NCBI GenBank assembly: GCA_024278555.1
Contig: JAJRSX010000085.1
Span: 1-15,040 of the forward strand
Reading direction: 5' to 3'
Source of the DNA: a bacterium
GTDB taxonomy: Bacteria; CG2-30-53-67; CG2-30-70-394
Length of the DNA stretch: 15,040 bases
A program made the position numbers and the translations under genes. The notes below the pieces were generated by a model, which saw nothing but the letters and a program-made list of their open reading frames with translations, was not told the DNA's origin and ran no database searches. This document shows, piece after piece, positions 4,970-6,991 of the stretch. The stretch's first letter is position 1, and each line of letters opens with the position of its first letter.

Positions 4970-6016
4970 ATGCGGTGGTTCAGCTCTCTCGGAGCGGTGG
5001 CCGTAGCGGTCGCCGTGGCAACCCCGGTGCAGGCGCTCGTGGGCCCCTATTACGGCTACGGCTCGGTCTCCGCCGTCAGCGGCCACGCGGACGCCACGAG
5101 CCCGTACGGGTCCGACACCACGGACTACAACAAGACCGGCGAAGGGACGACGCCGCTCTCGCTCGCCACGGGGAATCGGTGGTGGTGTGAGGCGGGGGAT
5201 CCCGGCTGTGGGGTCGTCAACCCACCCGGCTCCGACGCCTCGGGCTGGGCGGAGGTTAGCGTCGATCCGGCGGCGGCCACCCTCGGCGGCCTCGCCCGCG
5301 CCTTCCACGACCCGGGGCCGGTGGGCCCCCATTGTGTTCCCAACCCCTTCGGGAGCGGGCAGATCTGCCAGCCCCAGTCCTTCTGGGGATATGCCGGGGC
5401 GTGGGCATACGCGAGCCAGCTCTACGAGGTCGCCTCTGACGGCAGCCTTGCCGCCGGGGACCCGGTCACTGTGAGCGGGACGCTCCACCTCGCCGGCGAC
5501 TGGCGGGGCGACCCCACCATCGTCGGTGACCGGACGGAGGCGATGGCGATCCTCCACCGCCTTGGGCTCGGCGCGACGCAGCCATGGTTCTTCGAAGGGA
5601 GCGGTGCCATCAACAGCCTCTCGAGCTACCTCGATCTCATCACGATTCCCGAGTGGAACGATGGCCTCCTCGCCTCCGCGGGGACGATGGCGGCGGTCCC
5701 CATGGCCAGCGTTGTAGCCGGCGGTTTTCCGGATCACACCGCGGTGGATCAGAGCTACCCCTTCACCGCCGACGTTCAGGTCGGCGACATCCTCCTCCTC
5801 CAAAGCTTCCTCGATGTCGAGGTCACCCTCGACAACGACCAGCTCTACCACGACGTCGAGGGCGACCTCCTCCACACGGCCGGCACGAGCCTGGCGGCGA
5901 CCACCGCCGGGGCCCTCCTCCTGCCGCGCAGCGGCGTGGTACCGGAGCCCATGTCGCTCCTCCTGGTAGCAAGCGGCGTGGGCGCCGCCTTTGTGGCTCG
6001 ACGGCGGTCAATGTGA
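4970..6016 (+). CDS. Secreted PEP-CTERM sorting-domain protein, function unknown
   Basis: The 348-residue protein has an N-terminal signal peptide (MRWFSSLGAVAVAVAVATPVQA, about 1-22). It ends with a PEP-CTERM signal: VVPEPMS (PEP at 325-327), a hydrophobic segment, and RRRSM at the end. Such proteins are processed by an exosortase (EpsH family) and attached or released at the surface of exopolysaccharide-producing Gram-negative bacteria. No exosortase gene is in the window, so it must be encoded elsewhere. The mature region is rich in Gly, Ser, Asp and aromatics and has few cysteines (WWCEAGDPGCG, HCVPNPFGSGQIC). I recognise no catalytic domain. AAGGAGG at 4956-4962, 7 nt before the ATG, supports the start. 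It is transcribed alone, divergent from pepA and convergent with the methyltransferase gene. Confidence 0.9.
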   Translation: MRWFSSLGAVAVAVAVATPVQALVGPYYGYGSVSAVSGHADATSPYGSDTTDYNKTGEGTTPLSLATGNRWWCEAGDPGCGVVNPPGSDASGWAEVSVDPAAATLGGLARAFHDPGPVGPHCVPNPFGSGQICQPQSFWGYAGAWAYASQLYEVASDGSLAAGDPVTVSGTLHLAGDWRGDPTIVGDRTEAMAILHRLGLGATQPWFFEGSGAINSLSSYLDLITIPEWNDGLLASAGTMAAVPMASVVAGGFPDHTAVDQSYPFTADVQVGDILLLQSFLDVEVTLDNDQLYHDVEGDLLHTAGTSLAATTAGALLLPRSGVVPEPMSLLLVASGVGAAFVARRRSM

Positions 6017-6020
6017 CCGT

Positions 6021-6050
6021 GAGGCGATGCGGCTATGGCCGCACCGCCTC
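6021..6050. terminator. Hairpin between convergent genes, probable bidirectional terminator
   Basis: GAGGCG (6021-6026) pairs with CGCCTC (6045-6050), and GCGGC (6029-6033) pairs with GCCGC (6038-6042), around a TATG loop. There is one A/C mismatch in a 13-bp stem. It begins 4 nt after the PEP-CTERM stop codon and overlaps the last codons of the methyltransferase gene. No U-run follows on either strand, so intrinsic termination would be imperfect. Confidence 0.55.
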
Positions 6051-6647
6051 GATCGACTTCACCACGTCGAGGTAGTGGTGGGTGATCCGTTCGACGCGGA
6101 ACCCGGCGCGCTCCACGTTCGCCACCGTGTCGCGGTTGAGCTCGGTGGAGAGGTGGGCGAGGTGGCGGGAGAAGAGGGTCATCGCAAAGAGCAGTGGCCG
6201 CACCAGAGGTAGCCGGCTCGCCGTGTGCTCGAACATCAGCAGCCGCCCGCCCGGTCGCAGGACGCGAAAGAGCTCCCCGAGCCCCGCCGCCGGGTCGGGG
6301 ACCGAGCAGAAGGTGCAGACGGAGAGCACCGTATCGAAGCTGCCATCGGCGAATGGGAGCGCCGTGAGGTCGGCCTCCACCAGGTCGAGCCGCCCCGAAT
6401 AGGTGGCGGCGCGTGGCCGGGCCCGAGCGAGCATCGCCGGGGAGATGTCGACACCGGTGACCTCCAGGCCCGGCGGCAGGAGGGCGATATCGAGGCCGGT
6501 TCCTACTGCCCCAAAGAGGGTGCGCCCGGCGATGCGGGAGAAGAGGTCGCGCTTCGGCGCAGCCCAGCGTCGCTCCTGACCGCGGGTGACCAGGTCGTAG
6601 GTGCTCGCCTGGCGGTCCCAGGCGCGCGCCAGGGCGGTGCGCTCCAT
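6033..6647 (-). CDS. Class I SAM-dependent methyltransferase (UbiE/METTL7-like fold)
   Basis: The 204-residue protein has the Rossmann methyltransferase motifs in order. An N-terminal WDRQASTYDLV (10-20) is typical of UbiE-type enzymes. The SAM-binding loop lies around FGAVGTGLDIA (45-55), with TGVDISPAML (64-73) holding the acidic residue for the ribose. DLTALPFADGSFDTVLS (93-109) is followed by FRVLRPGGRLLMFEH (127-141). The C-terminus (NRDTVANVERAGFRVERI) recalls the METTL7 group and small lipid or thiol methyltransferases. The substrate is unknown. Its ATG (6647-6645) shares the A of the upstream TGA (TGATG), so it is translationally coupled to the Met-rich membrane protein. That pairing suggests a membrane-associated or metal/metalloid-related substrate, which is inference. 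The open frame extends upstream to 7007, but that part overlaps the neighbour and is a shadow. Confidence 0.85.
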   Translation of the reverse strand: MERTALARAWDRQASTYDLVTRGQERRWAAPKRDLFSRIAGRTLFGAVGTGLDIALLPPGLEVTGVDISPAMLARARPRAATYSGRLDLVEADLTALPFADGSFDTVLSVCTFCSVPDPAAGLGELFRVLRPGGRLLMFEHTASRLPLVRPLLFAMTLFSRHLAHLSTELNRDTVANVERAGFRVERITHHYLDVVKSIEAVRP

Positions 6648-6991
6648 CACCCCTGAACCCCGCGGAGGTTTCGGTCGAGGTGGTGGAAGTAGAGGGCGAC
6701 GGCGAGGCCGACGAGGGCGCCGTCCATCGCCACCCCAACCGCGGGGAGGCGGCCGTGGACCATCGCCCCCACCATCCCCGCCGCCATCCCCCCCCACATC
6801 CCCGGGACCATCACCTCGAACATCCCGGTGATCGGGGTAAGGAGGAGGGCCCCCACCATGGCCACAAACATGCCGGCCACCATCGCCGCCACCATGGCCA
6901 CGCCGCCGCCCAGCGCGGCGGCGGCCCCGCCGCAGGTGGCCGCGACCGCGGCGAGGAGGGCCACACAGGCGATATCGATGAGGCGACGCAT
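6647..6991 (-). CDS. Small membrane protein with methionine at every fourth residue
   Basis: From the ATG at 6991 the product is 114 residues and mostly hydrophobic, with two to three probable membrane helices (about 5-20, 28-80 and 85-102). All twelve methionines lie in one register of four: 1, 33, 37, 41, 45, 57, 61, 65, 69, 73, 77 and 89, giving stretches such as GMWGGMAAGMVGAM. The DNA shows the same regularity, with CAT recurring every 12 nt on the plus strand, while the codons between differ. A helix with MxxxM spacing would expose a methionine stripe. MxxxM in the second helix of Ctr1 copper transporters is a known Cu(I)-passing motif, so metal binding is a reasonable but untested inference. 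I recognise no named family. The start is uncertain: there is no good Shine-Dalgarno and the frame is open to 7372, but hydrophobicity begins right after MRRLID. It is coupled to the downstream methyltransferase. Confidence 0.72.
   Translation of the reverse strand: MRRLIDIACVALLAAVAATCGGAAAALGGGVAMVAAMVAGMFVAMVGALLLTPITGMFEVMVPGMWGGMAAGMVGAMVHGRLPAVGVAMDGALVGLAVALYFHHLDRNLRGVQG

Follow-up and report, generated by a model that had tools for sequence, protein, structure and literature searches.

A conserved methionine ladder and a coupled methyltransferase: a probable unnamed component of bacterial copper or silver handling

A 114-residue bacterial membrane protein carrying a ladder of methionines (the Met-ladder protein) probably takes part in copper or silver handling as a component not yet named. 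This role is proposed because the methionine ladder is strictly conserved, a methyltransferase encoded beside it is constant, and Cu/Ag export genes adjoin the pair in several lineages. We read the pair as a transmembrane methionine relay that handles Cu(I)/Ag(I) and works with an obligate methyltransferase partner, and we give this reading a probability of about 0.5. Both genes lie in a 15,040-nucleotide stretch of contig JAJRSX010000085.1 (assembly GCA_024278555.1), which is called the window here.

The Met-ladder gene occupies positions 6647..6991 on the minus strand and encodes 114 amino acids followed by a stop codon, as judged from its translation, a GC3 of 0.92, and a family HMM match of 2.7e-25. 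Its GC content by codon position (0.77/0.50/0.92) is similar to that of the neighboring genes, and the open reading frame is therefore a real gene. Methionine occurs at residues 1, 33, 37, 41, 45, 57, 61, 65, 69, 73, 77, and 89 and nowhere else; the statement in the initial annotation that all twelve are at positions of the form 4n+1 is thus exact by translation. Under random placement, the 11 noninitiator methionines fall into one class modulo 4 with P ~1.7e-7, or ~6e-4 when summed across periods 2–8, the number of proteins scanned by the reader being uncounted in both values. In the DNA, the 12-nt spacing is only faintly visible as two degenerate tandem arrays on the minus strand, which lie beneath the methionine codons of predicted helix 2 (6848..6899, 70% match) and helix 3 (6759..6803, 81% match). 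Among 39 homologues less than 80% identical, Met–Met separations of 4, 8, 12, and 16 residues were found in 168, 143, 98, and 66 pairs, versus 9–32 pairs at other separations. The spacing within the family settles the question of the register and is stronger evidence than the single-protein odds or the DNA arrays.

As a lone query, the window protein confidently matched only the congeneric copy in genome G001. A first scan of genome contigs with the window protein alone gave no matches, which made it necessary to scan 84,980 genomes with a degenerate DNA pattern (FExMxP...GMxxGM). This pattern yielded 34 loci, 33 of which encode a Met-ladder protein (L031 is a chance match), mostly in Nitrospinota and also in Nitrospirota, Deltaproteobacteria (Myxococcota, Desulfobacterales), Rhodospirillales, Bryobacterales, and one anammox genome. 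Three distant genomes were recovered with a two-row profile, the methyltransferase again being next in each, and profile searches placed the family in 35 of 77 Nitrospinota genomes but in just 5 of 386 genomes from a broad selection. Neither a plasmid tblastn search with three family members nor a search of viral contigs gave a match, and literature searches returned no description of the gene pair. Searches of Pfam, NCBIfam, and PDB sequences with the single protein and with a 32-member alignment matched no family or solved structure, in agreement with the earlier remark, whose author knew of no named family with this pattern.

In the 39 sequences (<80% identical), methionine is held at positions 33 (100%), 41 (95%), 61 (90%), 69 (95%), 73 (100%), and 77 (97%) and is variable at 37 (31%, mostly Gly), 45 (18%), 57 (13%), 65 (21%), and 89 (3%). 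The search pattern itself included Met 61, 73, and 77; Met 33, 41, and 69 were absent from it. When the window protein is excluded, the six core positions are still 89–100% Met; across the remaining 38 homologues, 218 of their 227 alignment cells are Met and only five are Leu, Ile, Val, or Phe. Replacement by these four residues is thus rare, whereas residues that serve packing would be expected to interchange freely with them. Because the conserved methionines make up six of the eleven internal positions, the perfect 12/12 register is partly lineage-specific. The earlier proposal of methionines conserved amid varying flanks accordingly holds for 33, 41, 61, 69, 73, and 77 and fails for 37, 45, 57, 65, and 89. 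Its alternatives of a diverged repeat or a selected spacing are each right in part, as degenerate 12-nt repeats are present and selection on the spacing is seen at six positions. Conserved companions of the ladder are D6, G14, A18, G36, G40, G56, F58, E59, P63, G72, G76, G91, and G95, of which G14, G36, and G76 are Ala in the window protein. The copy in G001 appears decayed, with two frameshifts and 12 missing helix 2 residues in the Met-ladder gene as well as a TAG stop and deletions in the methyltransferase gene (both read by eye, where assembly errors are possible), and the pair therefore seems dispensable in that genome, a point against the metal reading.

AlphaFold2 with the family alignment predicted four helices (mean pLDDT 92.8, pTM 0.83). 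Judged from this model and from conservation, helix 1 (residues 2–27; 6911..6988, minus strand) carries the conserved D6 and A18 and the Ala that replaces family G14, helix 2 (residues 29–55; 6827..6907, minus strand) the fixed M33, G40, and M41 together with the lineage-specific M37 and M45, and helix 4 (residues 84–109; 6665..6742, minus strand) the conserved G91 and G95. The family motif on helix 2 is MxxGxxxGM. Predicted helix 3 (residues 57–78; 6758..6823, minus strand) contains F58, E59, M61, and P63, the fixed M69, G72, M73, and M77, and the variable M57 and M65. All six fixed methionines (M33, M41, M61, M69, M73, and M77) are thus on the adjacent predicted helices 2 and 3. A turn at residues 55–56 would bring residues whose numbers sum to ~110 to the same level across these two helices, namely, 33/77, 37/73, 41/69, and 45/65. 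On a helical wheel, the glycines of helices 2 and 3 lie at 0–40 degrees and most fixed methionines at 60–140 degrees, with M61 at 340 degrees, from which a methionine ladder beside a glycine packing seam may fairly be inferred for the model. Foldseek searches with the model against the PDB and viral structures returned nothing significant.

The partner class I SAM methyltransferase (6033..6647, minus strand; 204 amino acids; Methyltransf_11, 1.3e-22) begins within the end of the Met-ladder gene, its ATG sharing one base with the TGA of the latter (TGATG at 6649–6645). The initial annotation was confined to the membrane protein and thereby omitted this translationally coupled gene, which is the constant partner. 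The same methyltransferase is located directly 3′ of the Met-ladder gene at all loci with enough downstream sequence (it is likewise present at L105), except for the decayed G001 copy, and the commonest junction is a 4-nt overlap (24/44). The paired methyltransferases group as one clade (support 95/87) in a tree that includes 15 unpaired relatives, and a single origin of the pair followed by its retention is therefore probable. A CxxC motif (C111–C114; 6306..6317, minus strand) occurs without exception in the 30 paired homologues less than 80% identical; both cysteines are found in about half of the unpaired relatives. On a Methylocystis plasmid (NZ_CP107561.1, locus L155), a relative of the methyltransferase forms the C-terminal part of a 621-residue annotated protein.

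The structure model of the methyltransferase (pLDDT 94.4) is closest to RtPmtA, the PmtA of R. thermophilum (8ys9; TM 0.85, 29% identity; profile E 1.5e-22). That the closest solved relative is a phospholipid N-methyltransferase counts against the metal reading. The likeness to PmtA enzymes lies in the fold; the partner methyltransferase differs from them in scoring far below the PmtA cut-off (58.1 bits against NF045882, cut-off 390), in its invariant CxxC and FEH motifs, and in its membrane partner gene. The UbiE and MpqE models were likewise matched far under their cut-offs, and the same applies to curated models of the arsenite methyltransferase ArsM (best 54.8 bits, cut-off 510; PRK11873 49.6 bits, cut-off 263).

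The evidence for the metal comes from the gene neighborhoods of relatives. None of the neighboring genes in the window was identified as a metal-resistance gene, and nearly all Nitrospinota loci are without metal genes beside the pair, which in these loci and in the window is a stand-alone unit amid varied, unrelated genes. In a groundwater deltaproteobacterium (L039), only ~60 bp separate cusA from the start of the Met-ladder gene. The L045 locus of a Nitrospirae genome comprises, in sequence, cusB, cusA, a small lipoprotein-like ORF, the Met-ladder gene, and the methyltransferase gene; this ORF (L045:3406-3771, minus strand) encodes 122 amino acids and is without an NCBIfam match. Both pumps score far higher against E. 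coli CusA than against the zinc pump ZneA (1125 versus 513 bits in L039 and 903 versus 440 bits in L045) and retain Met 573/623/672, the Cu(I) site described for CusA (PMC8092243). A Bryobacterales genome (G464) holds three copies of the pair (L240, L241, and L242), one of them opposite cusCBA and another close to a copper P-type ATPase (617 bits, cut-off 397). Within ~8 kb of the pair in a Rhodospirillales genome are genes for a CopI-like cupredoxin, which scores below cut-off, and for a protein resembling multicopper oxidases. A further P-type ATPase at L048, flagged as Cu-type by phmmer, proved to be PMR1/SERCA-like and was dropped as support.

Unpaired relatives of the methyltransferase were found near Cu-type genes (P-type ATPases, CsoR, Cus-type pumps, and multicopper oxidases) at 9 of 15 chromosomal loci, compared with 0 of 16 control loci around other Methyltransf_11 genes of the same genomes, a contrast that is suggestive and somewhat circular, as the query proteins were partly drawn from the tested loci. 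On plasmids, 6 of 13 inspected relatives have genes for Cu, Hg, or other heavy metals nearby, including those of Cytobacillus (Cu-binding proteins), Thermococcus and Mycolicibacterium (heavy-metal ATPase), and Rhodococcus (metal-sensitive regulator). The other two of these six, on Streptomyces (L176) and Salinirubellus (L182) plasmids, are near the organomercurial lyase gene merB, in Salinirubellus directly downstream of it. Alteromonas copper islands encode isoprenylcysteine methyltransferases (PMC8478169), which belong to a different enzyme family from the partner methyltransferase. The methionine-lined metal path proposed in the initial annotation is thus favored by the neighborhoods of relatives, which point to Cu(I)/Ag(I), and by the fixed methionines on two adjacent predicted helices, and it lacks a metal gene in the window itself. 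The metal is most likely Cu(I)/Ag(I); the Hg genes near some unpaired methyltransferase relatives count against regarding it as settled.

In the mechanism that we propose, the 114-residue protein would be a four-helix inner-membrane protein, of which helices 2 and 3 bear the fixed Met 33 and 41 and Met 61, 69, 73, and 77, respectively, together with conserved glycines and one acid, E59. An antiparallel hairpin centered near residue 55 would pair Met 33/77, 37/73, 41/69, and 45/65 into rungs across the membrane. These rungs could bind Cu(I)/Ag(I) and pass the ion across or along the inner membrane, by analogy to the Met pairs and the Met-Met-Met-Glu site of CusA. The coupled methyltransferase, with its PmtA-like fold and invariant CxxC, is the obligate partner and may methylate a ligand used in metal handling, whether a thiol, a lipid, or a small molecule. 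Metal binding and the direction in which the ion moves are inferences, as are the rungs and what the methyltransferase acts on.

Copper transporters of the Ctr1/COPT type have three helices, with MxxxM in TM2 and GxxxG in TM3, and mediate Cu(I) uptake as trimers. The Met-ladder protein shares the MxxxM and GxxxG spacings within transmembrane helices but differs in its four predicted helices, the placement of the Met motif on helices 2 and 3, and its methyltransferase partner; a Pfam scan of 32 members found no Ctr family, even at an E value of 1. The HME-RND pump CusA, which exports Cu(I)/Ag(I) by means of a transmembrane methionine relay (PMC8092243), is similar in having paired methionines on neighboring transmembrane helices (predicted in the present case) and a nearby conserved Glu, and its gene is adjacent in two relatives. 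In contrast to CusA, the Met-ladder protein is only 114 amino acids long, with four predicted helices and no RND architecture, and the family gave no sequence match to RND models (Pfam) or solved CusA chains (PDB). YhiM of uropathogenic E. coli, another bacterial inner-membrane protein with an MXXXM motif, has been tied to Cu homeostasis (PMC11005409); it is a different protein with a single motif, and the portion of that report consulted mentions no methyltransferase partner. Homology to MgtE/SLC41 was rejected at the profile level (hhalign probability 1% against 18 MgtE sequences). Four MgtE chains headed the VIA-align list (Z 10–11, ~2.5 Å, 108 residues), which is below the tool's safe level for helical bundles; the Foldseek match to the MgtE transmembrane domain was nonsignificant (E 0.7), and the conserved DPA motif of MgtE and its following Asp are absent from the Met-ladder protein.

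Other explanations of the pair were weighed against the relay. A membrane adaptor for a lipid-modifying enzyme, which would dock the PmtA-like methyltransferase and present a lipid or quinone head group, with Met and Gly serving packing and flexibility, would account for the obligate coupling of the two genes, the GxxxG-type glycines, the profile match, and the resemblance of the enzyme model to RtPmtA bound to DMPE and SAH. Packing alone, however, leaves the near-absence of Leu/Ile at the fixed methionines unexplained, as it does the metal-gene neighborhoods, and the weak scores against the UbiE, PmtA, and MpqE models speak against it too, so that we consider the adaptor rather unlikely. Less probable still is a detoxification of thiols or chalcogens, in which the methyltransferase would S- or Se-methylate a small thiol, sulfide, selenide, or metal-thiolate and the Met-lined protein would pass the soft product or substrate through the membrane. 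UbiE-like methyltransferases have been implicated in Te/Se methylation, and the invariant CxxC and the merB-associated plasmid relatives would fit such chemistry. A precedent is the human class I SAM methyltransferase METTL7B, which methylates H2S and small thiols (PMC7921093). At one locus (L115, genome G299), YeeE/YedE-like and DUF2892-like genes, named by eye, are divergent beside the pair. The YeeE-like sulfur transport genes would favor the thiol explanation, but sulfur neighbors were seen at this locus only, and adjacency to cusA favors metal ions over organic thiols.

The ladder might also be a compositional accident or slippage product, left by a 12-nt repeat that is diverging within a GC-rich gene and whose methionines are unselected. 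The degenerate arrays and the G001 copy, which is short of exactly 12 helix 2 residues as slippage would produce, agree with this idea; as a full explanation it is refuted by the six methionines kept across several phyla and is regarded as extremely improbable, although it may account for M37, M45, M57, and M65. With the Cu(I)/Ag(I) relay preferred, we put forward, tentatively and at well below even odds, that the pair represents a new soft-metal module, a minimal transmembrane methionine relay obligately joined to a CxxC methyltransferase, found in Nitrospinota and other environmental lineages, in which the passage of metal across the inner membrane and the SAM-dependent methylation of a lipid, a thiol, or a ligand of the metal would be one process.

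The other genes identified in the window are lipA, a homocysteine S-methyltransferase/MTHFR fusion, an M17 aminopeptidase, a DksA-like gene, a PLD-family synthase-like gene, and a DUF456 gene. A 348-residue protein encoded at 4970–6016 (plus strand) is without a Pfam or NCBIfam match, and its end, VPEPMSLLLVASGVGAAFVARRRSM, resembles a PEP-CTERM sorting tail.

If the preferred reading is correct, the Met-ladder family would represent an unnamed, compact kind of membrane protein that handles Cu(I)/Ag(I) and is distributed across several phyla, nitrite-oxidizing lineages included. The principle of the CusA methionine relay would then be found in a self-contained protein of 114 residues that is easily mutated, and a methyltransferase subfamily without a known function, whose genes repeatedly occur next to those for copper and mercury, would gain a role that can be tested.
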